Assembly (NCBI GenBank): GCA_950295325.1
Contig: OX485803.1
Span: forward strand, 26,102,001 to 26,166,000
DNA length: 64,000 nt
Direction: 5' to 3'
Source: Polytrichum commune
Taxonomy: Eukaryota > Streptophyta > Polytrichopsida > Polytrichales > Polytrichaceae
The position numbers and the translations under genes are program-made. Positions 620 to 19,917 of this stretch are shown here, piece after piece. The notes under the pieces were generated by a model. That model was given only the letters and a program-made list of their open reading frames with translations. It ran no database searches and was not told the DNA's origin. Each line of letters starts with the position of its first letter. The stretch's first letter is position 1.

Positions 620-620
620 G

Positions 621-1112: not shown

Positions 1113-1340
1113 CCACTAAATGACATACATTGTGCAATACGAATTAACTTAAGGTTGTTTTTGAAAATATGTTTACAAGGAATCCAATTGTAAATGTACT
1201 AAGGGCATACGGCATACAAAATTCATGTCTTCATACTAAGTTCTTCAAGTTAATGTGATTAATGCTTCCATTACATATTATACATATACATATGATTTAC
1301 GCCCCCCTTCATTACATCTACATCCATCTCTGATCGCATT

Positions 1341-2115: not shown

Positions 2116-2204
2116 GTTATTAGCTAGCTAAAGATAAGTCATGTAACTCAATTGGCTCAAGCTAAGGCCCAGCCATGTCATCCCTATCACTACCATAAAA
2201 AATT

Positions 2205-2480: not shown

Positions 2481-2667
2481 TTGTAACTAGTAGCTCAGCA
2501 ATTCGATTGAGCAAGATCAACTTCATCTGCACATAATAGGATCCAAGACGACTGAGCCAGGATTGATTTTTACATCTGCACAAGGCAACGCTTCAAGGGG
2601 CTCTCATCAAAGAACAAGGCAGAGGTAAAGACTACTTGTACTTGTAGAAACTTCAATTCACTATCCG

Positions 2668-2800
2668 GAAAGATTTAGGGTTGAGATAATTTGTTTAGAT
2701 CCAAGTGTTTTCAAGTGCAACTGGTTACATGTTTACATCTTAAGTTTGGATATGTCTTTACTCAAGTGGGCTATATTCTCTACATTCCTCTACATTCTAA
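2668..2800 (+). repeat. Dispersed repeat family R1, copy 2
   Basis: Same landmarks as 2205-2350: GATTTAGGGTTGAGAT, GTGCAACTGGTTACATG, and the CTCAAGTGGGCTATATTCTC block. It lies 460 bp downstream in the same orientation. Confidence 0.65.
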
Positions 2801-2964
2801 TGCCATACGATCCTGAAAAGTTGATCTTGTTGGATAATTCCGATTGGAAGAATCACATTCCCAAACGCCCTATTTTCGATGAGGAGTTGCAGATAGAGGA
2901 TGATGACAATTTGTTGGTAGAGAATCATGAGCAACATGTTTTAGGTATTGATGACGATGAGTGA
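2746..2964 (+). CDS. Short unknown ORF, possible transposon-protein tail
   Basis: This 72-codon frame starts inside repeat R1 copy 2 and ends with an acidic tail (EDDDN, then GIDDDE). After the repeat boundary near 2800 it encodes MPYDPEKLILLD followed by KNHIPKRPIFDEEL, which looks protein-like. I do not recognise a family. It could be the 3' end of a transposon gene whose upstream part has been replaced. Low confidence that it is expressed. Confidence 0.25.
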   Translation: MDMSLLKWAIFSTFLYILMPYDPEKLILLDNSDWKNHIPKRPIFDEELQIEDDDNLLVENHEQHVLGIDDDE

Positions 2965-3083
2965 TTTTGACTGATATGAAATATAATTGTATTGATGAGA
3001 CAATGTCTCCTTGAATTCATATAATGAGCTACATGAATTAATTTATTAGGTCAGCTAGTCCACCTATATGGCTAAAAACGGTA

Positions 3084-3238
3084 CCCGAAAAAAATGGGCT
3101 AGCCCAACTATGGCTAGATCGAGGCCTCAAAAAATATGGGCTAGCCCAACTATGGCTAGATCAAGGCCTTAGAAAATATGGGCTAGCCTAGCTATGGCTA
3201 GATTAAGGCCTCAAAAATATGGGCTAGCCCAGCTAGCT
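3084..3238. repeat. Tandem repeat of a roughly 55-60 bp unit, array 2
   Basis: Same unit as 1973-2115 (ATGGGCTAGCC, ACTATGGCTAGATC, GAGGCCT). About three units are present, the last ending in GGGCTAGCCCAGCTAGC. Confidence 0.75.
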
Positions 3239-3240
3239 AA

Positions 3241-4430
3241 TGGGCTATAAAAGGTGTGTAGGGTTTGTACATAAAGAGTGAGGGCTTGAAAGTGTGGTGA
3301 AGGAGTGAGTGGTGCAAGGGCGTATCTCAACAACAAGCATTGTAGATTTGTGTGTTGTTGTGTGGTTTTTTCAGCAAGGGAGGAACAATTTTTGTTGTAG
3401 AACACTTCAATGTGAGTACAACAATCTTTCTACACTCACAACCCACATCCTGAATTGGTTCATTGTTGATTTCCATTTGTTTTGTTTGAATTATGAGTTT
3501 TGGCAGGTTTTGCATGCAATTTGAGCTTTGATTATCATTTTGAAGCTCAATTCTATTGTGATTTTCATTTTTTGTTCAATTCAATCGTTCTGACCAAGCA
3601 CTTGCAAGCATTCTTCAAAGGAAGAATCACAGTCCACCGTTGTGTAGCCATTGACGATCGCACTGCACCGACGGCGGTGCCAGGAACACCGAGAGGAAGA
3701 CATTGGGCTTGAGAGCTGAGGGCCTGAGAGCCCAGAGAAGAACGTTGGTGAAAAGGGTAGGGAGACAGCGAAGTGACCAAGCAGCCTTGATGGGACTTAG
3801 GGCCGGCAGCTGCAGGCTGCCAAGTGGCACCGGGAGTGGGGAGCAGCCCGGGAGCAGGGAACGGCGCGGGGAACGGCCGAGGAGACGAATGTCACGGGAA
3901 CGTCACGGGAACGCCGGGGGCGGCGAACGACACCCGAGAACGCCATGATCAACACTCGGGAACGGACGTACAAATAGTGAGATAGAATAGTTAGATGATT
4001 AGTGAACACCTAGGGCAAGGGTAGATGAAAGACATACCCTAAGAGGATGAAAATCCCTTAGGATGAACATAAACTATTCCCACCCTCTTCAATGAATATG
4101 TGCATTTCGGATGAATGGGGTGCACGGAGGATAACCGTACCACATGGCACATCTAGATTAAACAAAGAATACCACCCAATGAACCCCACAAGTACATTTC
4201 ACATGTAAACATTATCACTGCTGTAAATAGATCCGAATGGGTTAAAATTAGATTGTAACAGGATTCAGGGCTAAAAATAGCCGAAAGCTTACATTTGGCA
4301 TTAGGGGACATTAGGCCTAACCGCCACATCCAGTTAATGGTAGATATTGGACACTATATAAAGAGGCCAAGTTAAGGGCCCTATCACACTTCATTTGCCG
4401 CGGAACATTAAATGTGAAGTGTCAACACGA
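3241..4430. other. No recognisable gene; GC-rich patch at 3640-3950
   Basis: Overlapping open frames of 60-80 codons occur on both strands around 3500-4000. None has a recognisable motif and they contradict one another. The GC-rich patch may be an old coding or LTR-type fragment, but I cannot assign it. Confidence 0.4.
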
Positions 4431-4431
4431 A

Positions 4432-4575
4432 TACCTTAGGAAACTTTAGGAGGCCGGACGAGCAACCCTTTGGAGACCAAAGGACTCGTAAACCTCATAT
4501 CCTAAGAAACGTTAGGAGGCCGGACGAGCAACCCCTTGGAGAGGAAGGGACTCGTAAACCTCATTCTTATTGTGA
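4432..4575 (+). repeat. Tandem duplication, 66-bp period
   Basis: Two adjacent units each contain CCTWAGRAAACKTTAGGAGG, CCGGACGAGCAACCC and GGACTCGTAAACCTCAT. The start-to-start distance of the AGGAGGCCGGACG block is 66 bp (4448 and 4514). Confidence 0.8.
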
Positions 4576-4579
4576 ACCA

Positions 4580-5399
4580 TCTCACGTGAGCGTCAAACAA
4601 CTAAAATCAAACTAAATGCACTTAAAGGGAGATCCAACGATTTTACCGAGAATTTGCTAAGCCTTGAGAGTGGAAATCATGGATTGAAATATGAGGTGAT
4701 TTGCAAAGCTGGAGACATTGGAATCGACATCATATCGAGAGGAGGACAAAGGAGGTGGCCGACGATTGGGCCACATCAATCACTACATAAGATTTCATCT
4801 CCATAAACCATACCTCATCGATTAAAAGAAATTCTAGATGATGGCATAAGAGTAGAGAAATGAGGACTTGAATAGGAAATGGAACAAACTCTTTGATGAA
4901 TGAATAAGGAAATTCTTATACTTGAATACTATCTAAGTGGATGGAATTACATTAGTGAGGAAGTATGCTTGAAATCTATCAAAGCTAATTCTCTCTTAAT
5001 ATAACATTCTTAGAATATTCGGAAGAATAGAAATGGTCTTAAGCATTCAAACCATGAAAGATATTGTATACAAGAATGAAGTTCCTTTAAATACACTTAA
5101 CCTCGACATTAGGATTTAGGGGAACATAACCTTGCAAACTTAGGTCAACTACTCCTTGAGAACTCAAAAGAGCATTAAAGGAATATGCTACAAAACTAAG
5201 ACTGCAATAAGAGTACAAACACCTTCATAGAAATGGAAATCTATGATGGTCTAATTTTGGTGGGAGTGACTTCCATTTAAACCGGTTCAGCAACGGGTTA
5301 CACCGACTAAGGCTGAGGGTTAAAGGTGACCTCGACAACCATATATGTATTCGTATATATACGAATACGTATATGTATAGACAATATGTGAGAAAATAA
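4580..5399. other. No gene seen; AT palindrome at 5342-5378
   Basis: AT-rich stretch without a credible frame. A self-complementary TATGTATTCGTATA / TATACGAATACGTATA run lies at about 5343-5376. Confidence 0.4.
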
Positions 5400-5408
5400 C
5401 CAAACCAG

Positions 5409-5657
5409 GGCCGGGGATTCGTGGCACTCACTTAGAATCATCCGTGCGGATGAAAAAAACACAGGAATCATCTAAATGGCTATTTTTGGGCAATTTGATT
5501 CCGGAAATAGAGTCAAATGCGGCCCCGAATTAGTCTAGTGACGTCACATTCGAATGAATCGGCCCTCAACCCCATAGGGGGCTTTTTTTATTGGAGCCAC
5601 TTCATCCACGATATCTTGGATGGATGATTCTAAGTGAGTGCCACGAATCCCCAGCCA
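5409..5657. mobile_element. Mutator-like miniature element (long TIRs, 9-bp target duplication)
   Basis: The left end reads GGCCGGGGATTCGTGGCACT and the right end is its inverse (AGTGCCACGAATCCCCAGCC plus one base). The inverted arms match over about 35 bp, through ACTTAGAATCATCC. The 249-bp element is flanked by the 9-bp direct repeat CCAAACCAG at 5400-5408 and 5658-5666. Long TIRs plus a 9-bp duplication are the usual signature of MULE-type transposons. No ORF is inside, so it is non-autonomous. Confidence 0.75.
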
Positions 5658-5671
5658 CCAAACCAGCCACA

Positions 5672-6017
5672 TTTACGAACGATCGTTCGTAAATGCGAAT
5701 ACATCGCCTGACCCAACCTTTTTTTACGAACGCTCGTTCGTAAATACCCGTACCCAAAGCACAAGTGAAGGTGTTTACGAACGCGCGTTCGTAAATACCC
5801 TACACCCAAAGCACAAATCCGGAACTTTACGAACGCGCGTTCGTAAAATACGCTGGAAAACACCAACCTATACACCACCATACTGTCAAAGTTATAAAAA
5901 CACCATCACTATGAATAATTAAAACAAAATATCCAATCTTACGAACGCACGTTCGTGAGAGCGTGAAATGTAAATTTAACCGATCAAAACATCTATTTAC
6001 GAACGATCGTTCGTAAA
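5672..6017. repeat. Array of six 22-bp palindromes (PAL family)
   Basis: Six copies of arm TTTACGAACG, two variable bases, inverse arm CGTTCGTAAA lie at 5672-5693, 5723-5744, 5774-5795, 5826-5847, 5938-5959 and 5996-6017. Central dinucleotides are AT, CT, CG, CG, CA and AT. The first four are spaced 51, 51 and 52 bp apart, and two of the spacers share ACCCAAAGCACAA, so part of the array is a diverged tandem repeat. It sits upstream of the large pseudogene, split from the next copy (7580) by a solo LTR. It may originally have lain in one intron or leader. Confidence 0.85.
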
Positions 6018-6112
6018 TATGATCAAAAGCTTCTAGATCAAATATATAAATGAATGTTATGTTATACAACCAAACCCACAATGCAAACAGTAGTATCTGC
6101 GGCCTGGTGATA

Positions 6113-7567
6113 TGTGAGTCCAAAATGGTGCCCACATGTGTTTTTAAGTCTTTAAGACCATTAGAAGTTATGTTTTAACGGTTATTAATTATTCACAAAA
6201 ATATAAAAAGAGTGAAGTGTGGTGTGCATTAAGTTTAGACATTAGAGGGCGTTGTATGATTGTCTCAAGGTTTAAGTTCAATGAGGTAATGCCTTAACTA
6301 GGTGAGTATGGAGTAAGATGAGGCGAGAGGGAATCCGCGGGTTAAATGCCCACATTAGGATCCACCTTGTTGATTTAGGAATGGAAGAGCCTTGTGGATG
6401 GAATGAGTCCCTACTTAAAAGGAGAAGGTTAAGGGGTTGTGATTGGAGGCTCTAATCCTCTCACCCTATCCTTACCTCATGTCCTCTCCTCCTCTTTGCT
6501 ATTTAAGACCTCGTTCTTCCCTCACTCATCCTCTCTTTCTTTCGTGCTCCTTGGCACCCCACGTGTTATAAATGTGGGTGCGTGGGAAGCAAGATAGGAG
6601 CACGTGTGTGTGCATGGGTGTAAGGTTAGGAGCCAAGGCTAGTTGGCCTTGAAGAGGGCTTGACCTCTTGTTAGTAATAGTTGGGCGTGAATGATTTAAA
6701 GTTCAATTTATGGCTTTGTTTGAGTACTTGGATTTACATTGATTAGCCTTATACTTATGCGGATGTGCAAAGTCTCTTATTGGAGCATTTAATTTTTTTG
6801 GACTTCATATGAATTTTTGAGAGCCAAAAAACCGAGACTATGTCCAAACTTCCAAAAGCTAGTGAAAAAGTGCAGATTCAAAGGGAACAGCGTAGAATTG
6901 CAACCATATACTTTTTGGCAGTAGAAATATTATTGCATATTCATGTAGAGAACTTCATTACCTATCCATGGATACCAAGAACTCATTTTTTGGACCTCAT
7001 ATGAATTTTTGAGAGCCAAAAAACCGAGACAATGTCCAAACTTCCAAAAAAATAGTGACACACTCTTATAGTTTTTGACTTATGATGTTTAGACTTAAAG
7101 TGTTGGATTCATTAGGTAGGAAAGGGTGTGTGTAACTTTTGAATGTATTGGTGATTGACCATTGAGGTTGAACTTAGTAATGGAATGTGAAGGCCTGTAA
7201 AGGAGAGGCCACCATAAGTTACACAAGTATTTGTTAATACTTAAACTTATGTGCTTCATGGAATCAACAAACGAAGGTTCGTGCAGTAGTGTGAAATCAA
7301 CGGCGAAGACCCGATTCACACGAGGAAAATCATTGAAGGCAAGCGTAGCCAAGACGGCCGGGTGGACATTGGAGAAGGCTAAGGATGTGACCTTACCCGA
7401 AGTTAAGGAATATAAGATGACATAGTGTGGGATTAGTCAAGTTGTATATATTCCAAGGGTATATTGGAATCATACATTGAATTAAAGAGGGATGATTTTC
7501 TACGTGTCATTATAACTTTTCCACTTGGGCTAGGACGAAATCGAAGGGTGGGGAATTTTTGGTGACA
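6113..7567 (+). mobile_element. Solo-LTR-like insertion, family LTR-A, copy 1
   Basis: Starts TGTGAGTCCAAAATGGTGCC and ends GGTGACA (TG...CA). It is flanked by the 5-bp duplication TGATA at 6108-6112 and 7568-7572. A roughly 1.45-kb unit with TG/CA ends and a 5-bp duplication is typical of a solo LTR. It aligns in order with the copy at 12638-14198: a shared ATATAAAAAGAGTGAA block, CTCACTCATCCTCTCTTTC, GGCACCCCACG and GAGGGCTTGACCTCTTG. No gag-pol coding was found. A short frame at 7231-7425 lies within it and is unassigned. Confidence 0.7.
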
Positions 7568-7579
7568 TGATATCACTCA

Positions 7580-7597
7580 CTCACGAACGTTCGTAAA
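7580..7597. repeat. PAL palindrome, shortened copy
   Basis: Reads CTCACGAACG directly joined to TTCGTAAA. The central NNCG of the 22-bp form is missing. It lies 31 bp before the CAG that precedes the first exon of the pseudogene. Confidence 0.75.
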
Positions 7598-7628
7598 TCC
7601 TTTACTAAAAGTGTATGTCATTGTGCAG

Positions 7629-8911
7629 ATGGCTAGATCAATCAGGAATGCCACTGAGATATTCGCGGTGCAGGTGGACAGCCTGCCACAGTAAGTGTCG
7701 GACACAAATGGCAACGACAATTATGTCCCAAAGGATGACTTCATGGGGGAGTGGACGGCGCTCCCAGAGAAAACCGAAGACGGTCTCTTTGTCCTACACT
7801 TCACGTACGAGCTGGAGACGACAACGGACCAGCCAGAACAATGGGTGCAGATGAAAACATGGAAAATAGAGTCAATAGAGGCCCAAGGAGATTACGTCAT
7901 TTTGGACATGAAAAACAAGAAGGACCACATCAACCTCTTGTTGCACTACATGGAACACTCCTTCTCCCACAATTACGCCATTCTGATTGTAGGAGAAGAT
8001 GCCAAACATTTCAACCTGCAGGGTCTCTTCACAAAGTACGCTTTGAGCCAGTACTGGACAGCCAGGAAGCTAACCGCCTTGGCATTGAACATCTCCAAAT
8101 ACAACAGTGTGGTCGCTGAGGCGAATAAGAAGAAGAGTCCAAGAAAACCTTCTGTATCCGGGGCAGGAGGTTCGAGAAGTGCACCCCGGCCTGTGCCATC
8201 CGCGAGCCGGGGGACGGAGGGGCCCAGCAGACATTCTGCGCCAGCCAAAAGGTCAAGGGATGACATGGAGAAGTCGGGAGTAACGGAGACGGCGGAGGTG
8301 AACTTGCCTTCTGTAATGCTAACCCCTTTGAAGAAGGGAAGAAACCCGGACGCTGTGAAGGCTACCAGAATCCTGAGAGACTTCAACAATTACTCAAAGG
8401 ATTGTTGGCCCATGGGAAGGCACTTTACATTCAACGTAGACTGCTTCAAGTGCGAGAAATCGCCAAACAAGTGGGTGGTTAGGTCTCGTGAGAGCGGGGG
8501 TGTGAAGTGGCAAATTAACAATTTGATGAACAACGTCAAGTGGGACAGACAGACCGTCTGCGTGATGCCGAGGGGCCTCACGTTCAGTCCAACTGAAAAA
8601 GATTGGCCCCGGATCCAGAATGGTGAGTGCTGCATCATAGATGGACAGCACAGCCTGGAGGCGTCGCATATCATCTTGAAGGACGACAACTTCCAACATG
8701 AGCTGAAGGCGGACCCACGCTACTGGAAGGCCTTCCTGGTGTTGTCGGACGACTGGGACAAACTCCAAAAGATTTCAATTTTTTTGAATTCCGGTAATAA
8801 GATAAAGGCGTTTGGGCAGCAAACATAGTGGCTGCAAGAGATGTCTGGGTGGCACATGGATGCCCGCCAAAGGAGAGAGAGAATGCGAAGACCCAGTCTC
8901 CGTAGTGGAAG
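7629..8911 (+). pseudogene. Large pseudogene, exon 1: DGQHR-type domain
   Basis: The exon begins at an ATG directly after a CAG (7626-7628), probably a splice acceptor, so transcription may start upstream. The frame runs MARSIRNATE..., meets TAA at 7692-7694, then stays open to 8828. A basic Pro/Ser-rich linker at about 8120-8280 (KKKSPRKPS, AKRSRDD) is followed by a domain containing CCIIDGQHSLEA (DGQHS at 8640-8654). That motif resembles the DGQHR signature of DndB/ParB-fold-related proteins, with Ser for Arg. Near 8811-8813 one base seems lost, because the frame one back continues as WAANIVAARDVWVAHGCPPK to 8911, broken by TAG at 8903-8905. A GTAAGT donor starts at 8912. The reading and the phase 0 junction to exon 2 are direct; the function is unknown. 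It may regulate or bind DNA if the family analogy holds. Confidence 0.6.
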
Positions 8912-8916
8912 GTAAG

Positions 8917-8938
8917 TTTACGAACAAACGTTCGTAAA
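8917..8938. repeat. PAL palindrome 5 bp inside intron 1 donor
   Basis: Arm TTTACGAACA, centre AA, arm CGTTCGTAAA. It begins five bases into the intron, overlapping the donor consensus (GTAAGT). Confidence 0.85.
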
Positions 8939-9011
8939 GGTCACTTTGCATTTCAATTTTCTTGAGCTTATAAAATTTCCTGGATTTTTTTATTTTTCCT
9001 GAAGTTTCCAT

Positions 9012-9033
9012 TTCACAAACGTGCGTTCGTATT
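9012..9033. repeat. PAL palindrome near intron 1 acceptor
   Basis: Arm TTCACAAACG, centre TG, arm CGTTCGTATT. It ends 35 bases before the TAG acceptor at 9066-9068. The following ACTGACACATTTG is shared with the end of intron 2. Confidence 0.8.
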
Positions 9034-9068
9034 TAGTGCAACACTGACACATTTGTTTTCCATTGTAG

Positions 9069-10385
9069 GCATTTTGCAATGCGATGGTGGGCAAATTTTC
9101 CTCCATCGACATGAAGTCCACCACCACAAAGTCAGTACTAGAGCTGAAGGGTGAGCTTCGTCTCATTTGCTGCAACAGGGATACTTGGGAGTTTTGGACA
9201 CAATTTTTTGACTCGCACAACTCGGGCGATCTTGTCAACCCCGACACAGAGGAGAAATACAACGCGGACAAGACCGGAGAGGCCCCTCCACTACTAAGGG
9301 AGTTTTTCAGGTCCCTGCAGGGACTCACGGAGTCGGAACTGAAGCGTTGTGCGGTTCATGTACTTGGGAACACAATGGGAAGAACAATCCCATATCCCAA
9401 GATTTTTTTGAAGAGGCCCAAGCACAAGCCCGGAACATACTCCATCAAGGAGTGGTGTAACGACAGGAAGATGAAGACAGCTGCGATGCGGGAGTTGAGC
9501 GGTCTCCTGCCAGAAATGCAACTTTTCTATGCCGACGGCGACATCAACTGGGCCAAATGGAAGGAGTTCAAGTTGATGTACATCATCAATGGGGCCTCGA
9601 TGCGAAGCCTAATGAAAGAGCACATCGCCGTTCTGAAACTCAAGGGCAACAAGAGAGCCAAGAAGACGGAGACAGAACCCGAGGAGCTGCAGCGGTACAT
9701 CTCCTTCTTGGAGAGGAAGAGAAACGCCACATTTGAGGGTGTCGCCAAATTTTGTGTGGTCACAACTGGGTTGGAGAGGACAACATTCTCCAAATGGGAC
9801 GGCAAGGCCGAGGTCAGGGAGGACCGCAGGGGTTGCCCCTTCGCAATACTTGATTTCAGGGGGATCCCGGGTGCATCTAGGAAGGGGGCGAAGGGGGTGC
9901 CCTTTTACAACCCCTTCATGGCAAAATTCATGGAGTACAAATCTCCAGCCATGAAGGAGCCACACGTGTGGCTGTGGATTGTTAAACAGGAGAAGGTCTC
10001 TGTCATCACCGTGTTGTATGAGGAGACAATAAAATTCGAATACAACATATTCCACAACACATACGTGCCTGCCAAGATGGAAGGGATCGTGGCGATTAAC
10101 GAGGCCAGGGGCAACAAGCAGGTGGGAGCGGTCAGCCTCATCTTCTTGACGTACAATGTGCTGAGGAATGGGCGAGCACCTGTCAAGGCCAACAACACGT
10201 TCAAGAAGATTTATAGCATCCCTCACCCCCCTCCCAAGGAGCTGCTGCAGGAAACGCTATACACGGTCTTCCCAACGTTAGAGCTCAAGTTGGAGTTCTA
10301 CGTATCCGTGTTGCAGGGATTGGCGATGAATGGAGAGACAGTTTACAACGTCTTTGGAGGCAACAAATTTATGTACGCTGCAATG
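9069..10385 (+). pseudogene. Large pseudogene, exon 2: beta-class DNA-methyltransferase-like domain
   Basis: The exon opens in phase 0 after TTGTAG and stays open for about 440 codons. In order it shows a long helical charged region (9084-9800), then CPFAILDFRGIPG at about 9836, where a beta-class N4/N6 adenine/cytosine methyltransferase would carry DPPY. A strand-rich core follows, and GETVYNVFGGNKFMYAA near 10332-10382 sits where the FxGxG SAM-binding motif would be. Exon 3 continues it as LGLCVNTYVDAVNEEEY, matching the usual LGR...xE/D...Y pattern. Motif order (catalytic first, SAM-binding last) fits the beta class. Both key motifs are degenerate, so activity is unlikely. The methyltransferase call is inference from pattern, not from a search. 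The exon itself has no internal stop. Confidence 0.5.
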
Positions 10386-10404
10386 ATAAGCTCTCCTACT
10401 AAAC

Positions 10405-10426
10405 TTTACGAACGCTCGTTCGTAAA
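10405..10426. repeat. PAL palindrome near intron 2 donor
   Basis: Arm TTTACGAACG, centre CT, arm CGTTCGTAAA followed by G. Its right arm contains a possible cryptic donor, GTAAAG. Confidence 0.9.
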
Positions 10427-10525
10427 GCCATGTATGTAGCATTTTTCATGCCTGCGGAATGTTCAGTGGTTGATATATGTTGTCATAGATTTTTTCACAC
10501 TATAGTCTCCCCCGTAGTGTTGATA

Positions 10526-10547
10526 TTTACGAACGCGCGTTCGTATT
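10526..10547. repeat. PAL palindrome near intron 2 acceptor
   Basis: Arm TTTACGAACG, centre CG, arm CGTTCGTATT. It is followed by CTGACACATTTG as in intron 1, and ends 28 bases before exon 3. Confidence 0.9.
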
Positions 10548-10575
10548 TGCTGACACATTTGGTTCTATCTCCTAG

Positions 10576-11659
10576 ATGTTGGGGTTGTGCGTCAACACAT
10601 ACGTTGATGCCGTCAACGAGGAGGAGTATAAGCTCCACATGACAAAGGCATCCACAATGGATCTAGGTGACATGTCCGTCCCCAGGACGGAATTCAACAT
10701 GCCTGCTGACGAGGGAATACCCGTCATGGAGACAGACGACGACGAGCCCGTTCCATCCGCCAACCTGGACACCATCGTCCAGTTGTTCGACGTCACCCCG
10801 CTCTGAATGTTGGCGCCGTCGGGAAATCCATCCAACGTGCAGGGGACTCCAGGTGGATACACGGGATCGTCGGCGGGGACAACCCAAGATGTCTTCCCCG
10901 CGCGAACGTTTGGAGCGGAGGCCTTCGGCACTCCCGGGGGATGCTCGACTTCCGTGTTGCCCAGGCCCCATCTCGTGGTTCCTAAGATGGAGAACCTCGA
11001 TCTTCTCGACCAGCGCTCCCGGCCGTCCTTGGACCTCTTCCGCAACACGAGGAGGAGGATGAAGAAGACCCCTTACGTGGAGCTGCCGAAGGGGGCAATC
11101 ATCGAGGTCTTCGATGAGGACGAGGACGACATGGAGATCATGGTCAAGCTGGGGGTGGACTTTGACAAAAACAAGAGGGTCAAAGAGGAGGCGTTGTCCG
11201 TTGCCGAGCTTAACGCCAAACTCGAGCAAAAGATGAAGGAGGACATGGCGAAGGCTGCAGAGGAGAATGCCAAAAAAATGTTCCAAATTCAGGAGGAGCT
11301 GAGGCAATCCAACGAGAAGACGGACACCATCCTTGCCATGCTCAGCCGGATGCAAAACTTCTTGGCGCCCCCCCAGCCGGCCTACCCCTTCCCTGGAGGA
11401 TACCCCTTCTAGTCCCCCCCGCCATGCATGTTTCCCGGAGGGCCTTCCCACCAACAGGCGCCCCACCCTATGCCTGTTGGCACTCCTCCCGCCACCACCT
11501 CCCACGATGCTGTCGCGGCGACCATCTAGGAGGACGAGGATTTACGAACGCACGTTCGTGAATCTTCAGGTCCTGCAGTCCTCATCCCTCCACCTTCAAG
11601 GGTAGGACTGCCATCAGAGACGGACATGGGTTCATTCACCGTCGTCCCCAGGGTAGTGG
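10576..11659 (+). pseudogene. Large pseudogene, exon 3 left part: SAM-domain tail, coiled coil and proline-rich linker
   Basis: Begins MLGLCVNTYVDAVNEEEY, completing the methyltransferase-like fold. One frame then runs to 11659, interrupted by TGA 10804-10806, TAG 11410-11412 and TAG 11527-11529. Between the stops it stays protein-like: an acidic block (EDEDDMEIM), a heptad-like helical stretch rich in Glu/Lys/Ala at about 11190-11340 (LNAKLEQKMKEDMAKAAEEN), then a Pro/Gly/Tyr-rich segment (PQPAYPFPGGYPF, then SPPPCMFPGG). The 22-bp PAL element at 11541-11562 lies in the coding frame and is read LRTHVRE. The frame is cut at 11659 by an LTR insertion and resumes at 15781. All three stops fit Gln or Arg codons changed by one C-to-T step. 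Confidence 0.6.
11541..11562. repeat. PAL palindrome inside coding exon 3
   Basis: Arm TTTACGAACG, centre CA, arm CGTTCGTGAA. The surrounding reading frame passes straight through it. Confidence 0.85.
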
Positions 11660-12144
11660 TGTGAGGCCAAACCACCCACCCTTATGCGTCGTAGTCCGGG
11701 TGAGGGCATGTAGCTCACATTCAATATTATGGCATTCTTCCCCTTCAACATCATCAACCTCCACCACATTCAACATCAATGTTGGCACACCAGTTTATTC
11801 CATAATGGGAGTACAAGCATTAAAAAATGCTCTTCTCTACTCCTTCCATCCTTCCTACACTCTCTCACAACCCAACACTAAAATCCCTACCTAAGGCTTA
11901 CTTACTAATGCCACAACCTTTCACCTTGTGGCCCCCTAATTTACTAATAATCTCATTTACTAACTTAGTTCTTCGCCCTTCGCCTAATCAACTAATCCAC
12001 ACAATATTGTACCCTTAATACTATTCATCCCCCCCCCCTTAACTTCCCCTTAGTCTTGGGATTGGCACCAGAAATTTGCGTTGTTTGCTTGGGGCCTAGC
12101 CCATCATCGCCCGTCAAGGGCAGGCCTGGTGGCTTAAGGGCCAG

Positions 12145-12335
12145 TCAGGAGCTTCCTCGCTCACATTCGGTTGAATCAGGGGCAGGAGCTTCCTCCTCGC
12201 ATTCGGTGTTGAATCCAGCCAAGAGCTTCCTCCTCACATTCGGTTGAATCAAGCAGGAGCTTCTTCCTCGCATTCGGTGTTGAATCCAGCTAGGAGCTTC
12301 CTCACTCACATTCGGTTGAATCAGGCAGGAGCTTC
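12145..12335. repeat. LTR-borne minisatellite, left half
   Basis: Alternating units GCTTCCTCCTCGCATTCGGT plus GTTGAATCCAGCC, and GCTTCCTCGCTCACATTCGG plus TTGAATCAGGCAGGA, give roughly 60 bp per pair. The array is interrupted at 12335 by the nested LTR and resumes at 15251. Confidence 0.8.
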
Positions 12336-12637
12336 TGTGAGCCCAAAACGGTGCCCACATGTGTGGTTACCCTCAAAAGTTATTAGGATTTGTTCCTTTT
12401 TTATTTTGATTGCTATTTCAAAACTAAAAAGAGTGTAACCCTTGGGTTTGTTGTGTTTTTGTGTTAACAAGTGATTTACATCATTTGTGTGCTGAGAGAG
12501 GGTTAGTGTTAATTAGATTTAGTTAAAGTGATTGTAGTTAGTACTTTTGTTATTCGGAAAGGGAATGTGAGCTTGGGGCTTAAGGCTGGGTTAGGTGCCC
12601 GAATTGGGCTTGGAAGCTGCCCACATTGGGACCGGGG

Positions 12638-14198
12638 TGTGAGCCCAAAAGGGTGCCCACATTTAGTCTTAGACCCCTGAAACGTTAGTTGATGCACTTT
12701 GAAGTAGCATGTTACTTCACAAAAATATAAAAAGAGTGAAATGTTAGTCTTAGAAGTACCATGTTGTAAGAGGCTAGGATGTGAGTTGTTATTGTGTTTT
12801 TACCTTCGGAAGGATTTGAGTGAATGAGGATAGGTAAGGAGAACTTGGATTGAGTAGTTAGTGAGTAGGCTAGTACAAATGGATGGAGACAACCAAAGTG
12901 ACTCAAGAGGCAAGTGCATTCGAATTGGGATGAATGGAGGATCACATGGAGCGCACAAGTGGACCACCTCATCATGGCCACTTAATGGGGAAGGCCCAAG
13001 GAAGAATGCAAGGTGGAGGATAAGCAAATTCTCAAAGCACCAATCAAATCACGAGTTAAGCATCGTGGTTTGAATTAAGTGGTGAGCGACGATTTGGGAA
13101 AGTAAGGGGAGAAAGTTATGGCGGCGGAAAGCGAAGGAGGCTAAGTTTGGGTTGAAGCATCCCAAGTTTGGTAAAGTGTGGTAGGTAGAAAGCCAAGGCT
13201 AGTTAAATGTTCGAATTAGGATCCTTGTTGATCATTTGAGGGAGGAAGACTTAGAAGATAGGATTGGCGCCTACTAAGTAGGAGGAAATTTCAAGGGCTT
13301 ATCGTGAGCCTTGAGGGTGCTCACCCCCTCAAGCTTACTATATAATCCCTCATTCTTCCCTCACTCATCCTCTCTTTCCTTTGTGCTCCAAGGCACCCCA
13401 CGAGTTATAAGTGTGGGTGTGGGAAGCCATATTGGAGCACATGTGTGTGCTTAGTTTTTAGTTTGAGAGCCAAGGCTTGTTAGCCTTGAAGAGGGCTTGA
13501 CCTCTTGGTAGAATTAGTGTTGACGTGAAGGATTTTAAAGTTAATTCATGATTCCAATTTATGGTACTTAAAGTTCATGTTTTGAATACACGTGGTTGCA
13601 AGTTCCATGTTTAAGAGTTGAGCACTTGATGTTGTGATGAGTGCAAAAATATACTTGTGTGGATTAGTTAGTCTTAGTGAAGTTAGGAAATTCTCTCTCC
13701 CCCTCTCCTCTCTAGGATTTTAGGATTTTAGGATTAGAGAAGAATTGTGTGATTAGAAAGGGGTTGTTAGTAGAATTAGGGAAATTAGGTAGGAAGATTA
13801 GTTAAGGCTTGAATAATTAGTGAGGTAGTTGGGGATTACAACTACAAAGTTGTGGGTTCATGAAGGAGCTGGGTTTATGAAGGAGCTGGGTTTGTTTAGT
13901 TAGAAAGTAAAGAGCTGGGTTTATGAAGGACCTGGGTTTGTTTAGTTAGAAGCTAAGGAGCTGGGTTCATGAAGGAGCTGGGTTTATGAAGGAGCTGGGT
14001 TTGTTTAGTTAGAAGCTAAGAAGCTGGGTTTATGAAGGAGCTGGGTTTATGAAGGAGCTAGTTAAATCCAAGACCACTTGAAGGGTGAACCTTGTACTAT
14101 GGACTCATCCAAGTCCAAATCCAATACCACGGAGGAATGTGAGCCCAAACCCACTACTCGGACTACGGACGCTTAAGGGTGGGGGGTTTGGCCTCACA
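12638..14198 (+). mobile_element. Third-level (innermost) solo-LTR-like insertion (LTR-A)
   Basis: Starts TGTGAGCCCAAAAGGGTGCC and ends GGGGTTTGGCCTCACA. The 5-bp duplication CGGGG is at 12633-12637 and 14199-14203. A TATA-like CTATATAATCCC lies near 13340. A repeat of GGAGCTGGGTTTATGAA units occupies about 13862-14062. It is collinear with the copy at 6113-7567. This is the youngest insertion of the nest by position. Confidence 0.8.
13862..14062 (+). repeat. GGAGCTGGGTTTATGAA tandem repeat within inner LTR
   Basis: A 17-bp unit GGAGCTGGGTTTATGAA recurs, mixed with GGGTTTGTTTAGTTAGAA spacers, about nine times. It is an internal expansion of the LTR. Confidence 0.75.
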
Positions 14199-14375
14199 CG
14201 GGGGCTAGTTGAATTAGGCTGTAGCCTTGTTAGAATCAGGTTGGGGTAGGCCTTGCAAGTCGGAGCGAACACTGGATTCTCGGATGGATCAGCTGCGAGG
14301 TAGCCAGGAGCGGTAGCTCGCTGCTGGAACAGACTCTCTCATTTTTTGAAGGTAGGTGGCCTAATGTGACGCTCC

Positions 14376-14745
14376 TGGGAGGGCCGAATTGAAGGCTCAA
14401 GGCCGAAGCCAAAGCTCCTGAGAGGGGATTGAAGGTCAAGGCCGAAGCCGAAGCCACTGGGAGGAGATTGAAGGTCAAGGCCGAAGCCAAAGCTGCTGAG
14501 ATTGAATTGAAGGCTCAAGGCCGAAGCCGAAGCCACTGGGAGGAGATTGAAGGTCAAGGCCGAAGCCAAAGCTGCTGAGATTGAATTGAAGGCTCAAGGC
14601 CGAAGCCGAAGCCACTGGGAGGAGATTGAAGGTCAAGGCCGAAGCCGAAGCTGTTGAGATTAAATTGAAGGCTCAAGGCCAAAGCCGAAGCTGTTGAGAT
14701 TGAATTGAAGGCTCAAGGCCGAAGCCTGGAGCTACTGAGCGGGGA
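14376..14745. repeat. GCCGAAGC-rich minisatellite
   Basis: Units of about 75-120 bp containing AAGGCTCAAGGCCGAAGCC, CACTGGGAGGAGATTGAAGG and TCAAGGCCGAAGCCAAAGC repeat across the stretch. Both strands stay open for long because of the periodicity, giving spurious frames on the minus strand. Confidence 0.8.
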
Positions 14746-15250
14746 GTGAAGGCCGAAGGCCGAAGGCCGCCGAAACTAGGCCACCTGTACCGGTGCCGGG
14801 CAGTGACGGGCCGGGCCCCGAGCCCAACAGTGCTAAATCCCGGACTACAAACCAAAACTGAAGTGGACTTAGGGTGGGGGATGGGTAGTATTTACACTAT
14901 ATTATATTATAGGCTAGTTACTTAGGCTTAATACGAAGGATTAATCTAGGTAATTAGTTCATTAGTGAGTTAGGGAGCCATGAGGTGTTAGGTGGTGGTA
15001 TTAGGGAGTGAAATTGGGTGTGAGTTGTGTGTGGGTTTGCGATAGGGTGTGTTAAGAGGGTGATAATATAGAAGAGCGTTCTTCAACGCTTGTACTCTTG
15101 CCATGGAATAAATTGGTGTGCCAAAATTGATGGGGAAGGCAACAGAGGTTAATGACGTTGGGGAAATGGAATTATGTGAGCATGAATGTGAGCCCCATGC
15201 CCCCACCCGGACTACGACGCATAAGGTGGGTGGTTTGGCCTCACAGCTTC

Positions 15251-15395
15251 CTCCTCGCATTTGGTGTTGAATCCAGCCAGGAGCTTCCTCGCTCACATTC
15301 GGTTGAATCACGCAGGAGCTTCCTCCTCGTGTTCGGTGTTGAATCCAGCCAGGAGTTCTTCGCTCACATTCGGTTGAATCAGGCAGGAGCTTCCT
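15251..15395. repeat. LTR-borne minisatellite, right half
   Basis: Same alternating GCTTCCTC... units as 12145-12335. The two halves are separated only by the nested LTR and its duplicated GCTTC. Confidence 0.8.
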
Positions 15396-15780
15396 CTTGA
15401 GAGACTGGCCTTCCTCCCACTCCCCTCTTCGACACACCCCCAGTCTCTGCCTCTGTCTAGTTTGAACCCGAAGCCGAGGCTTATCCATAAACCCTCCCCA
15501 AACCCCTAAGCTAACATACAAAGGCCCTAATTAGAACACTAAAACCCTGGGTCCCTTCCCCTCAAACTAACATACCTACAGCTACTTTAATCACCCACAA
15601 CTAATCCCGCTAATTCCTCAAATTAACACACACACACACAAGCCTAAGCTTAAAACATAATCCCACACCACACTTCACTCTTTTTAATGCTTTTCAATTG
15701 CATGACGAATTTGAAAACCCAAACTGGATGGAAAGTAATGGTAAGAATAGTTGTGGGCACCATTTTGGGCTCACAAGTGG

Positions 15781-16130
15781 GTAGGCAGGGCAATGACACT
15801 GCGCAACACACTGACATGTTCATTGTGGGAGACACGCAGGAGAGCCCCAATGACGCGGCATGGGTCCAAGGAATGGACGTGGAAAGCCCAGAGTAGGAAC
15901 GACATCCCTCCGCGCGGATGGAGGATGTCCGCATGGAGACTCTCGACCTGGGCGGAGAAGACGAAGACACAAAGCTCATCCAACAGATCTAGGCGTCTCA
16001 GGCGGAGCGTGCAACAGAGGCCATGGAGACAGAGGCGGGTGGCCCAATGGACATTACGAACGCGCGTTCGTTAATCGAAGAGGAGGGAACTGCTCAGTCT
16101 AGTGCCGCTGCCCCTCCCCCCGATGACGAG
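15781..16130 (+). pseudogene. Large pseudogene, exon 3 right part: acidic linker
   Basis: The frame resumes immediately after the outer LTR and its AGTGG duplicate, as GRQGNDTAQHTDMFIVGD. It runs to GAG at 16128-16130 before a GTAACT donor. TAG at 15894-15896 (context SPE-stop-ERH) and TAG at 15990-15992 (context IQQI-stop-ASQ) interrupt it. Both fit CAG changed to TAG. The linker is acidic (EDVRMETLDLGGEDED), and a PAL copy at 16053-16074 is read in frame as ITNARSL. The exon ends PPPDDE in phase 0, matching the phase of exon 4. Confidence 0.6.
16053..16074. repeat. PAL palindrome inside coding exon
   Basis: Arm ATTACGAACG, centre CG, arm CGTTCGTTAA. It is read in frame as TNARS, a different frame from the copy at 11541. 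Confidence 0.85.
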
Positions 16131-16158
16131 GTAACTCTCCTCTGAGAATACCACTCAT

Positions 16159-16180
16159 TTGACGAACGCGCATTCGTAAC
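16159..16180. repeat. PAL palindrome in intron 3, donor side
   Basis: Arm TTGACGAACG, centre CG, arm CATTCGTAAC. It lies 28 bases into the 650-base intron 16131-16780. Confidence 0.75.
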
Positions 16181-16467
16181 CACTAACCCCTGCGCGTTGT
16201 GTTCTTGGCGATTCCTCTCCATCGGCATCACGAGGCCCTCGAGGACCCTTTCCTACTTGGTCCCTTAGGCCGCTAAATTTTGTAGGACACGACATCATGT
16301 TGCCTTAGGAAACTGTGATAGATTATCACGTGAGACAATTGTAAATATTCATCGAATTAATATATGAGCAGATGATCTCTGCGTCGCATCCCCCCAACTT
16401 CTTGTATCGTATCGCATCTTGTATTGTGTATGTTCATGCGCATCTTTACACTTGCATACCCACCTTG

Positions 16468-16586
16468 TTGACGAACGCTCGTTCGTAAAAGGGTGCGACC
16501 CCCTGTCCACCTCCTTCACGAACGAGCGCTCATAAATGATGCGCACCGCCACCCACAACCCTCATTCACGAACGCACGCTCGCAAG
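16468..16586. repeat. Cluster of three PAL palindromes in intron 3
   Basis: Copies at 16468-16489 (centre CT), 16515-16536 (centre AG) and 16565-16586 (centre CA) are spaced 47 and 50 bp. The last two have diverged right arms (CGCTCATAAA, CGCTCGCAAG). The spacing is close to that of the array at 5672. Confidence 0.75.
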
Positions 16587-16631
16587 TGTGCCATTGAGCA
16601 AAATCTCCTTGCACTATTTTCCCCACTTCCT

Positions 16632-16735
16632 CGTCTTTTCCCATAATGCATCGTTATTTCCCTTAATGTAGCGTTATTTCCCTTAATGTAGCGTCATTTC
16701 CCTTAATTCATTGTCATTTCCCTTGATGCAAAATT
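16632..16735 (+). repeat. 21-bp tandem repeat in intron 3
   Basis: About five units of ATTTCCCTTAATGTAGCGTT or close variants (CATAATGCATCG, TTAATTCATTG, TTGATGCA). Confidence 0.8.
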
Positions 16736-16780
16736 CTTTATTGGATCATAGCATTAAACTAGTCGAATTGTTAATCACAG

Positions 16781-17548
16781 GACCCCCCGGAGATAGGTCG
16801 CAACCCCTCGACCAGTGGACGTGAAACCCGACAAAAACCCTTCCTAGTGTTTGACCTCAACGGGGTGTTGTGTCACACCCAACACATCCCCAAGGTCCCC
16901 ACGCGTCCCTTCCGTCACCCCGACGAAAGGGACTATGACGGCGAGCTCGACACCCTCATTAATCACAAGGCTGTCGGCGCCCGTCCCGGCTTGCGGGACT
17001 TCCTTCGCGAGGTGCTCGACTTAGCTCACGTCATTGTGTGGAGCTCCATGGTCATGGAGAACACGGAGCCCATCGTCAACTTCCTATTCCGCGATCTCCC
17101 GAGCCCTTGCCTCGTCCTCGGCCAAGAGGAATGCGATGAATTGCTCAACGAAAAGGGTCTGCCGGTTCCAAAGTTCGGCGGCCGAGGCGGAGGACAACAG
17201 TTCCTTAAGGTCCTTAGGTCTAAACTATGGCGAGGCATCCCCCGTCTGCAGGGGGTACCCCACGGGTGGTGGCCAACTCCTGAGAACACCGTCCTCATCG
17301 ACGACAGCCCCACCAAAAGCGTCTTGAACCCCCGGGGCAACGTCATCTACCCCGACACTTGGACCGGCGATAGGAACGACACATTTTTGGTCGATACGCT
17401 AGCGCCTTACCTTAGAAGGCTTGTGCTCCACGCCGGTAGCATCTCTTTTTTTGTTAGGTCCAACCCCATTGGCAATGTGGGGCTAAGCCCCCGCGATAAT
17501 GTATTTAAGAGCATCATGAGGCTCGCCAAATTCAATAAATTGATTTGA
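16781..17548 (+). pseudogene. Large pseudogene, last exon: FCP1/NIF-type HAD phosphatase domain
   Basis: Follows a CACAG acceptor and opens in phase 0 (DPPEIGRNPS), then runs 255 codons to TGA at 17546-17548 without interruption. KPFLVFDLNGVLCHT is HAD motif I of the FCP1/SCP-like group, with Asn replacing the second catalytic Asp, as in the plant DLNG subgroup. HVIVWSSM (about 17030) is motif II. TVLIDDSPTKSVLNPRGN (about 17288) carries the terminal DD motif. The C-terminus (APYLRRLV..., SISFFVRSNPIG) matches how such domains usually end. This exon alone looks intact and could survive as a short gene if transcribed separately. The missing Asp makes phosphatase activity doubtful. The product would be expected in the nucleus if it acts on RNA polymerase II CTD, but that is inference. 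Confidence 0.75.
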
Positions 17549-17646
17549 AATGCCTCCATGTCTGTGCTTGTTATCATGTGGTTCACATATCTAATGCTTG
17601 CTCCATTTTTGGATGTCTTTTGTTGTTTTTGTTGTTGTTTCCCATA

Positions 17647-18964
17647 CTCGGGGGGGGGGGGGGCACTCCCTTGTATATTTTGCATACACCTGCGATAATG
17701 ACCTATTAAAATGGGGGCTATTTACCTATGAGAAAGGATTATAAAGGATGCTAATTTTTGAAATAATGGTAAATTGTTGTGATTATTTGCACCCTATTGG
17801 TAATTATAAATTCTTGGATGGTTGATTTTATGGTACCCTATATTACTTATATGTAATTTTTTTCCCCTGATTGCCCCCATTCCTTAAAGTGTATGATATA
17901 GTAGAATTCTCGTTAGAAGCACGTGTACAGAGTAAGAGAAACAAACATTTACTAGGGTTTAGGGTTTAGGGTCACACTGAAGTCCGGGCAAAGCAAAACA
18001 CTAAACAATAACAACAAAAGATTGCAATTACATGTCATTAAGCAACATGAGCCAACGAATAAAAATTGTGTTGGATTATAACACAGTTAGAAACCTTGAG
18101 GTCTTAGGGAATAGGCCAGCCACATGTGTCTCAAAGTCACATTTATAAGGTTTGCAGAAGCCCTACAATTGATGCCTTGATCTTCCAATCTTACACATTG
18201 GAGGAAAATCCCACGCCATGCAAGCAAAATCCACCTAAACTAGCTAGGCTACCATTTACACATGTGGGAGATATGAGGGTACTTGAACTGAAATGACTAC
18301 TATAGATTTCAAGGTATACTAATGATCATTCAGCCCTTTTTCCAAATTATATCTCCACATGTGTGAGATAGTACAAATTTAGCAAGTTTTAGTTTTTATT
18401 TGAAATGAACTTACTCAATGAGTTTGCATCTACCTCATCTAAGGTGTAGATTTTGCTAGTTGATTCATACACTAGAGACACAGTTGAGATAATAGCATCC
18501 ACATCAACCCACACACAATCACTCTCAACATACTTATATTTGTTGAGACCCAGCTGTTTTTTGAACCAATGGAGGTAAGCCATAGCAGTTGGGAAGAGCG
18601 TTTCTCTATTTCCGTTATGGACTGCACGTTTCATCAAGTCAATGGGTTGCCAACAATTGCCCCACTTAGTACCAACCTTCACCCTTATCTTTTGAACCCT
18701 TCCTATATAGAACATGCCATATTTTGGTGGCAAAGTATTTAATTTTTGAAACTATCGCTTTTTCTCCATGCTATTTTATATGTACCACTTAGGTAATTTA
18801 ATCATGTTTTGTCAAATGCTATATTACATATAATCATGTTTCACAATCCTAGAGCACCCTATACTACATCTAATAATTTACAAATTTTACGCCAAATTTT
18901 TATACAAGACCCTATATTTTATCGCACGTAGTTCCTACGTTTTTCGCTAGTGCCCCCCCCCGAG
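17647..18964 (-). mobile_element. hAT-like non-autonomous element, copy A
   Basis: Terminal inverted repeats are CTCGGGGGG...GCACT at the left and AGTGCCCCCCCCCGAG at the right. The 8-bp direct duplication TTCCCATA is at 17639-17646 and 18965-18972. An 8-bp duplication is the hAT mark. The 1318-bp body is collinear in inverted orientation with 45077-46385 and carries a 114-codon frame on the minus strand. A few TTTAGGG units lie inside near 17955. No transposase is encoded. Confidence 0.85.
18389..18733 (-). CDS. 114-codon ORF carried by hAT-like element, copy A
   Basis: The frame opens LPPKYGMFYIGRVQKIRV, includes WGNCWQPIDLMKRAV and a Trp/Tyr-rich middle (TAMAYLHWFKKQLGLNKYKY), and ends KFISNKN-stop. 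The first codon of the open stretch is TTG. The first ATG gives MFYIGRVQ, or the frame may start after a TAG acceptor just upstream, which would make it a captured exon. About ten residues differ from copy B, mostly conservative, and neither copy has a stop or frameshift. I do not recognise the family. A loose resemblance to C-terminal modules of other plant transposon proteins is only an impression. Confidence 0.5.
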   Translation of the reverse strand: MPPKYGMFYIGRVQKIRVKVGTKWGNCWQPIDLMKRAVHNGNRETLFPTAMAYLHWFKKQLGLNKYKYVESDCVWVDVDAIISTVSLVYESTSKIYTLDEVDANSLSKFISNKN

Positions 18965-18973
18965 TTCCCATAG

Positions 18974-19459
18974 TATGCCCCCATATGCGACGCCCCTTCC
19001 CGTCCCCACTCGGCCCCTGGCTCCCCTTCCCGCGACGTGACGGACTTCCAAATGCCATCCCTCTACCAGTTCTCGGCGGTGGACGCGGCCTCGGCCGTGG
19101 ATTACTCCTGGGACGTTGAGATCGATGACATCGTCGTCAACAACCCACCCCCCACACTTGTCGCTCGCGCGTTCGCCCCGTCGCCCTCCCCCCTCTCCAA
19201 GGAGAAACGGACGCTTGTTTGGTTGGGACACCTGTCGCCCTCGAGGGACGACGGCGTCTCCGCATGGAAGGCCCCTGGTGCCACACCTCCCCCGCCGACT
19301 CCCTTCCTCCCCCTGCAACGTCCTCCGCGATCGCCGGCCCGCCTCGCCTCGACTCCCCCCCCGCCATTCAACAGTGCAATAGTTCGATCGGCTCTGGATG
19401 CTCCCGTCCACGCCCCCCTCGTTCCCACCGTCCCCCGCATGGACGTCCCCAAAGCCAAG
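18974..19459 (+). pseudogene. Unknown GC-rich gene remnant, exon a
   Basis: Opens directly after a TTTCCCATAG acceptor-like site and stays open in one frame to an AAG/GTGCCC donor at 19459/19460. The frame reads RDVTDFQMPSLYQFSAVD, then an acidic DYSWDVEIDDIVVNN, then a Ser/Pro-rich disordered region. GC content and codon use resemble the large pseudogene rather than the flanks. The acceptor side has been split from its upstream intron by the hAT-like insertion. Family not recognised. It may be a separate gene or a lost downstream part of the preceding locus. Confidence 0.4.
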
Positions 19460-19611
19460 GTGCCCTCCTCAACCCTAAACCCCTTTCCTGCTTTTGCTTC
19501 CCTTGTCTTGCGTGTGCGTGCCGTTATCTTTACGAGCGCCCATCCCAAACCGCCCTCATTATTTTGCCCACTCCATTCCTATTCTTATCTTCCTATGGCG
19601 TTGTTTCGCAG

Positions 19612-19917
19612 GTGGCTACCCGCTCACTTGGTGGCCGGCCCTCCTCCACGTCTTCCTTGGATAGGCACGCTCTCAAGGCCGCATCATCCGAGTCCGATCG
19701 TTGTTTGGCCCTCCGGTGAAGCGCAAGACATTCCCTCTCGCAAACGCACTCTTATTCCACTCACAATCCCACTTCGTACAATTCGGGAGCGGGTTCCGAA
19801 ATATGGAAGAACAACACATATTTTGGGCCCGTCAACAAAAATGGTTATAGCCGCGGGCCGGAGATTTTTAGAGCCATGGAGGCTGCCAAAAGCAAGGACA
19901 AGGCCGCGAAAAAATAA
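19612..19917 (+). pseudogene. Unknown gene remnant, exon b (C-terminus)
   Basis: Begins after TTTCGCAG in the phase required by exon a. It reads VATRSLGGRPSSTSS, meets TGA at 19717-19719, then continues SARHSLSQTHSY..., NNTYFGPVNKNGYSRGPEIF and ends with a lysine-rich tail EAAKSKDKAAKK before TAA. The single TGA fits CGA changed to TGA. The intron between (19460-19611) holds a decayed PAL-like half site (TTTACGAGCG) near 19530. No family recognised. Confidence 0.45.

Follow-up and report, generated by a model that had tools for sequence, protein, structure and literature searches.

A 22-bp palindrome in Polytrichum commune lies within a large DNA transposon and may be a binding site of the element's own regulator

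Why does a palindrome of 22 bp recur within the first 17 kb of a 64,000-base stretch of the Polytrichum commune genome (GenBank assembly GCA_950295325.1, contig OX485803.1, positions 26,102,001 to 26,166,000, forward strand; the whole stretch is called the window in the following), even in coding exons? The original prediction, made from the letters of the window alone, described about 17 copies with a variable central dinucleotide around gene sequence and likened them to the palindromic elements of Rickettsia, while naming a protein-binding site as one option. The palindromes of the window are all located inside one degenerate copy of a DNA transposon, here termed F1. We consider it probable that they are cis-acting binding sites of this large DUF7869 transposon, which would be read by the element's own regulator. 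The candidate for this regulator is a protein with an (I/V)(D/N)GQH motif that is encoded by three exons of the element and is called the DGQH protein here.

A search with the full 22-mer TTTACGAACGNNCGTTCGTAAA revealed 14 matches with at most three mismatches at positions 5672-16536, and 100 dinucleotide shuffles of the window gave a mean of 0.00 and a maximum of 0. The 18-base core was found 17 times (5674-16584; shuffle mean 0.08), in agreement with the predicted copy number. A chance origin can be rejected because these counts are far above the shuffle means. Neither the 22-mer nor the core has a match in the rest of the window outside 5672-16586; the copies are thus confined to the first 17 kb, as had been predicted, and the transposon stops at 20332. 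The F1 palindrome is built as TTTACGAACG-NN-CGTTCGTAAA (10+2+10), and all seven central dinucleotides of the original prediction (AT, CT, CG, CA, AA, TG and AG) were observed. Moreover, the genome-wide search that had been proposed (408 Mb, 64 contigs) uncovered 3,737 sites with the exact 20-base core (TTTACGAACG arms) and none with the reversed control.

The F1 element is represented by three young copies, A, B and C, which are alike over 16.1 kb and have abrupt ends, reading AACACTATATTCG... and ...CGAATATAGTGTT (identity 98.7% between A and B and 99.4% between A and C; the bounds used for these copies vary by a few bases between analyses). The window copy has the ends AACACTATATTC and AATATAGTGTT and spans C1:26092710 (L039:211) to window position 20332, its left end being located 9,291 bp to the left of the window. 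Target duplications of 4 bp flank three of the four copies (TCTT in B, AAGT in C and TTTG on either side of the window copy); in copy A, a duplication was looked for and none is visible. The exact ends, the target duplications and the repeated copies therefore identify F1 as a DNA transposon. With about 29.6 kb, the window copy is longer than the young copies because of nested insertions. A degenerate 28-base pattern of the termini has 342 + 360 occurrences genome-wide. In the left part of the element, a minus-strand gene matches the Pfam family DUF7869 (E=6e-41) and likely encodes the transposase; a literature search on DUF7869 found no paper. The right part carries on the plus strand, in this order, the three-exon DGQH gene, a gene for a NIF/FCP1-like phosphatase and a proline-rich open reading frame (ORF). 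Sola DNA transposons generate 4-bp target duplications and possess terminal inverted repeats. F1 shares both features with Sola and has a multi-gene cargo and a palindrome system in addition; in Pfam, its transposase matched DUF7869 only. A viral origin is unsupported: in viral contigs, no relative of F1 exon 1 or of the transposase of the related family F3 was detected by scans that reach close relatives only.

Copy A contains 30 palindromes (at most four mismatches), which are distributed from 3,858 bp from the left end to 2,404 bp from the right end. They precede three genes, namely the putative transposase gene, the DGQH gene and the phosphatase gene. Within the DGQH gene, two are located in intron 1, two in or bordering intron 2 and two in coding exon 3, the splice borders having been read from the sequence by eye. 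The window copy is organised in the same way, except that a nested element interrupts exon 3. The features of the window are as follows (plus strand where indicated; the other features carry no strand):

1..20332, plus strand: right-hand part of the degenerate F1 copy (homology to copy A; ends and TTTG duplication)
5672..6017: array of palindromes preceding the DGQH gene, at 5672, 5723, 5774, 5826, 5938 and 5996 (pattern search)
7576..7597: decayed palindrome directly ahead of the start codon of the DGQH gene (counterpart in the alignment to copy A: CTTACGAACGTTCGTTCGTAAA)
7629..8911, plus strand: DGQH exon 1 with an in-frame stop and a frameshift (tblastn, 81% identity to exon 1 of copy E1 in two frame pieces; borders read)
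8917..8938: palindrome in intron 1, from intron base 6 (pattern search, alignment to copy A)
9012..9033: second palindrome of intron 1, left arm decayed (core search, alignment)
9069..10404, plus strand: DGQH exon 2, open, 3' border approximate (ORF, genome matches)
10405..10426: palindrome at the border of exon 2 and intron 2 (pattern search, alignment)
10526..10547: palindrome in intron 2 (pattern search, alignment)
10576..11657, plus strand: first part of DGQH exon 3, interrupted by stops, start read from the sequence (505-residue open frame in L004 and L008)
11541..11562: palindrome in coding exon 3, LRTHVRE frame (pattern search, E1 frame, alignment)
11658..15782: nested insertion splitting exon 3; E1 lacks it and has the flanks adjacent (11783/11788) (comparison with E1)
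15783..16142, plus strand: last part of DGQH exon 3 (comparison with E1, tblastn)
16053..16074: palindrome in coding exon 3, TNARS frame (pattern search, E1 frame, alignment)
16159..16586: array of palindromes preceding the phosphatase gene, at 16159, 16468, 16515 and 16565 (pattern and core searches, alignment)
16775..17548, plus strand: NIF/FCP1-like phosphatase ORF (PF03031, E=1.4e-16)
18974..19942, plus strand: third ORF, proline-rich, without a Pfam family (ORF; 85% DNA identity with E1)

The predicted placement of the copies in intergenic DNA (5672-6017 and 16159-16586), in introns (8917, 9012, 10405 and 10526) and, in different frames, in coding exons (11541 and 16053) thus stands. Genes do surround the copies, but these are transposon genes and not host genes. 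In copy E1, both palindromes of exon 3 belong to a single 505-residue open frame (L004:621-2135), in which they are read in two frames. Exon 2 of the window yielded 1,167 first-look candidates in the genome and 93 scored matches, one of them the exon itself and the remaining 92 with 80-86% identity; since the genome searches score only the best candidates and give only the first 100 places, the numbers of copies are minimum values and the maps of sites incomplete. The array at 5672 is adjoined on its left by an insertion of 248 bp (5409-5656) that resembles a miniature inverted-repeat transposable element, with 35-bp terminal inverted repeats that are 97% complementary. The nested insertion in exon 3 is 4.1 kb long and contains internal tandem repeats and inverted segments.

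Do the palindromes move on their own? Rickettsia palindromic elements are palindromes that reside inside open frames, and the coding-exon copies in two frames are reminiscent of them. However, all of the 91 sites that were examined among the first 100 of the 3,737 F1 sites could be assigned to the F1 transposon family, so solo insertion at unrelated loci was seen at 0 of 91 sites. These sites comprise 31 between facing terminal repeats (C1:639070-648560), 56 within element copies in L003-L006 and four isolated ones (L033-L036), the weakest of which, L036, is 66-77% identical to array regions of the element only; the other nine of the first 100 (C1:2235597-2242550) stand outside the 91, and a transposon exon is present among them. 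Moreover, the number of palindromes varies in steps of a complete unit, spacer included, for instance by one 49-bp unit that is present in A and absent in B, and the related families described below share palindrome positions and differ in palindrome sequence. A clean 22-bp insertion was not seen, although no systematic search for empty sites was made. The original prediction had named occurrence at the same sites in relatives as the finding that would speak for ancestral sequence, and within the transposon family this is the case: the exon palindromes are common to copies that are 79% identical. Independent mobility of the palindromes is therefore hardly credible. Of the original interpretation, the true repeated palindrome in a nuclear genome and the protein-binding option are retained, and the Rickettsia analogy is abandoned in favour of integral parts of a transposon.

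The 31 sites between facing terminal repeats belong to a 9.5-kb derivative, which contains 43 F1 sites at no more than three mismatches (L001, L024; the motif counts of F1 loci exclude L002, which overlaps L001). In this derivative, tblastn detected only 49 residues of the transposase and 81 residues of the NIF phosphatase, the first 295 bp being outside the search. Such a site-rich and gene-poor derivative would be expected of a passenger that is served in trans.

If the palindromes are parts of the transposon, what are they for? The compared parts of copy A contain 12 palindromes, and the window has lost one of these by deletion. Between the two copies, the arms are identical at 205 of 220 bases (93%), the 25-base flanks on each side at 346 of 471 (73%), the spacers at 17 of 22 and the remainder of the alignment at 4,163 of 5,047 bases (arms versus flanks: Fisher p=1.5e-10, with bases taken as independent). 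Therefore, the arms have been kept, or homogenised, while their surroundings drift. Sites with a fixed 10+2+10 layout are typical of proteins that bind DNA as dimers. We regard it as very probable that the palindromes serve as binding sites for some element-encoded protein, which would be symmetric and bind as a dimer with one 10-bp arm per subunit. Alternatively, the palindromes could form RNA hairpins in transcripts that control splicing, provide a source of small RNAs or affect transcript stability. With a stem of 10 bp and two spacer bases, folding is indeed conceivable, and the intron 1 copies start 5, 8 and 18 bases after the splice donor in the families F1, F2 and F5, respectively (donors read by eye). 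However, the densest arrays are intergenic and lie upstream of frames on both strands, within a family the sequence is kept and not pairing alone, and the strict geometry again argues for protein dimers, which leaves RNA hairpins improbable.

Which protein of the element could bind the sites can be addressed with related transposons, because five families, F1 to F5, carry homologous genes and each has its own 10+2+10 palindrome. The F2 palindrome (GTTTGGGTCG-NN-CGACCCAAAC) lies upstream of a paralogous gene in L004, beside an F1 copy. With its arm GTTTGGGTCG, it has 9,731 exact sites genome-wide and is present in eight of the eight F2 loci examined (48 strict copies); it occurs in intron 1, in intron 2, twice in the exon 3 frame and once before the NIF gene. 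The DGQH exons 1 and 2 of F2 are 34% and 35% identical to those of F1. F3 (arm CCCACGGGTG; 819 exact sites) has a transposase that is 39-52% identical to that of F1 (L025) and, at L030, an NGQH protein (24%) and a phosphatase (38%) in the same order; its palindromes reside between the second and the third exon, at one place in the exon 3 frame and ahead of the NIF gene. In F5 (arm TTTACGGACG; 1,310 exact sites), identity to F1 amounts to 78-88% for the transposase, 54% for DGQH exon 2 and 59% for NIF, and palindromes are located on either side of exon 2, towards exon 1 as well as towards exon 3. Among 50 listed F5 sites, 41 lie between facing terminal repeats, six within 12 kb of a single repeat and three near no listed repeat. 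For F2, F3 and F5, the reversed controls gave 0 sites, and the exact sites of these families and F1 sum up to 15,597. For F4, the site numbers refer to two loci and not to the whole genome: L027 contains 26 sites (arm GGGTGAGGCA) and L026 contains 46 (variant arm AGGTGAGGCA), each at no more than four mismatches. Within the F4 arrays, units recur about every 57-62 bp; the AGGTGAGGCA blocks that start at position 3062 of L026, with a spacing of 57-60 bp, form the longest array seen. The F4 transposase is 26-35% identical to those of F3 and F1, and its DGQH core 20-31% to those of the other families. Per ten bases, the arm differs from that of F1 at one position in F5, five in F2, six in F3 and nine in F4. 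Palindromes precede the DGQH gene in all four related families and also reside in its introns in three of the four. Thus, in F2, F3 and F5, the palindromes have largely retained their position and shape and changed their letters.

The transposase itself may be considered as the binder, with the palindromes acting in synapsis or excision. In the Spm/En system, TnpA has repeated, family-specific subterminal sites near the element ends. The palindromes of F1 are likewise repeated, family-specific sites within an element that encodes a candidate binding protein, and the left array starts where the transposase ORF has its 5' border. However, unlike in Spm/En, there are no sites within 2.4-3.9 kb of the ends: at no more than four mismatches, the first site of A, B and C is located 3,858 bp from the left end and the last 2,404-2,405 bp from the right end, so end-proximal transposase sites can be rejected. 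Several sites are also found in introns and in the coding sequence of another gene. Moreover, F1 and F5 have near-identical termini (the terminal pattern left variable bases open) and similar transposases, whereas their DGQH proteins and palindromes differ. This comparison uncouples the palindrome from the transposase and links it to the genes on the right of the element. A role as transposase-binding sites is thus unlikely, if somewhat less so than the hairpins.

Palindrome likeness drops as the DGQH proteins diverge. Over the ten pairs of the five families, the identity of the DGQH core (87-93 residues) correlates with the number of matching arm bases with r=0.72, a value that is reached by six of 120 label permutations, the true labelling included; in this test, F4 was represented by an exon piece of 213 residues and F5 by two frame pieces. 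The covariation and the position of the gene make the DGQH protein a good candidate, with odds in its favour, for the dimeric binder of the palindromes. That palindromes of one shape but different spelling recur at many corresponding places suggests that every element encodes a protein which recognises its own tag alone.

Several observations weigh against this assignment. Five families are few for covariation, and the transposase and the phosphatase diverge between the families as well. No palindromes were found in F5 exon 3, in F3 intron 1 and in the 5.5 and 5.0 kb examined at the distant DGQH loci L031 and L032. In F4, arrays are absent from the 5 kb downstream (L038), the palindromes being upstream only in the part read. 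The F3 transposase (L025) and DGQH gene (L030) come from separate loci, with an F3-type transposase match about 15 kb from L030, and may belong to one element; for F2, the transposase is known as a nearby match only (C6:9458977). Those DGQH exons that were scanned yielded no Pfam match over the curated cut-off and no recognised DNA-binding domain; the best match, between exon 3 and HAUS-augmin3, scored 19.4 bits (E=8e-4) where the cut-off is 29.4. The NCBIfam scan of the protein returned a single match with E=0.18, and a profile search of the PDB with exon 1 returned four, the best with E=0.061. AlphaFold models were too poor (mean predicted local distance difference test scores of 47.5 and 38.4), and Foldseek with the first model found nothing at E<=0.001. 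The DGQH motif and the arrayed palindromes resemble DGQHR/ParB-like systems, which would make the palindromes partition or replication sites of an extrachromosomal stage, like parS. However, no ParB-like or DGQHR domain matched the scanned DGQH exons at E<=1 in Pfam or NCBIfam, and the sites are spread through introns and exons besides the arrays, so that partitioning is a very unlikely function.

What would a DGQH protein bound to the palindromes do? The closest parallel is VANC, the anti-silencing protein of the Arabidopsis VANDAL transposons, which binds its motif and removes DNA methylation. According to two studies, VANC is a transposon protein bound to family-specific motif arrays in non-coding DNA, and these motifs have diverged between related elements and multiply as tandem repeats (PMC5735166; PMC10398659). 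The motifs described there are short and non-palindromic (YAGTATTAY; AGTTGTCC/AGTTGTAC), and the proteins contain DUF1985/DUF287 (PMC5735166; PMC10398659). The systems are alike in a fast-evolving element-encoded protein next to a more conserved transposase, in family-specific motif arrays in the non-coding DNA, introns and upstream regions of the element, in motifs that vary from one related element to the next along with the protein that the element encodes, as seen here over five families, and in motif multiplication as tandem repeats. They differ in the 22-bp palindromes, in the DUF7869 transposase, in the sites within coding exons and in the companion phosphatase. DUF1985 and DUF287 are absent at E<=1 in Pfam from F1 exons 1-3, F2 exon 1, F3 exons 1-3, the F4 pieces and the distant relative, in a scan that left out F5 and F2 exons 2-3. 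Judged by protein domains, motif type and transposase, the DGQH system is thus not a member of VANC. Among the titles and abstract beginnings listed by literature searches, no earlier description of a DGQH-palindrome system was found, and the VANC papers recur.

By analogy, there is about an even chance that the binder has a VANC-like role in anti-silencing or transcriptional activation of its own element. By covering arrays in promoters, introns and gene bodies, it would make or keep its own family transcribable against host silencing and leave other families untouched; a change in specificity would then spread to all sites by tandem duplication and selection, whereby the sites would stay family-specific. 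Members of the NIF/FCP1 family usually have a DxDx(T/V) motif. The window phosphatase reads DLNGV at this position, and the phosphatases at window 16775-17548, L030:6845-7510 and L037:3550-4392 read D-(L/V)-N-G-(V/I)-L, so the transposon enzymes may be inactive or altered in specificity; phmmer found no match to the phosphatase at E<=0.001. A phosphatase gene on a transposon is unusual in itself. We tentatively propose, at somewhat less than even odds, that an undescribed family of DGQH DNA-binding proteins with private 22-bp palindromes forms a second, independently evolved system of anti-silencing or self-activation in plants, in which RNA polymerase II at the tagged element might be the target of the accompanying FCP1-like phosphatase. 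If so, transposons would have invented family-specific self-address systems twice, anti-silencing by shifting sequence specificity would become testable outside Arabidopsis, and the protein-palindrome pairs would be ready-made orthogonal DNA readers. The arm differences of F5, F2, F3 and F4 from F1 could serve as a graded series for locating specificity residues in the new protein family, and the exact sites of the four families as a map of who addresses whom in one genome.

Some minor observations concern other parts of the window and the assembly. Another short palindrome, ACACTAAATATNATATTTAGTGT, occurs with variants in the AT-rich part of the window (30233-30255, 30431-30451, 31319-31341 and 51598-51620) and may constitute the terminal repeats belonging to some small element or else a further family of sites. 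Outside the F1 element, a decayed F2-type palindrome, GTTTGGGTTGTCCTACCCAAAC, is present as a single copy at 46761-46782. Contig C8 of the assembly carries an rpoB gene with an rpoC1-like ORF behind it; the best matches of rpoB are five chains of known structure (1,070-1,072 residues; 1,592-1,603 bits, the next match reaching 1,160), which we take to be plant plastid and cyanobacterial. The sequence thus points to a land plant or a close relative as the probable source, and the rpoC1 sequence tentatively to a bryophyte. The assembly seems to hold contaminant contigs: C9 (L041) looks like a fungal mitochondrion, with atp6 best matching 5lqx and 6b2z, which we take to be yeast structures, and C22 (L044) reads as animal ribosomal DNA. 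Finally, L043 on C5 contains an interrupted piece resembling ribosomal RNA, which reads as fungal.

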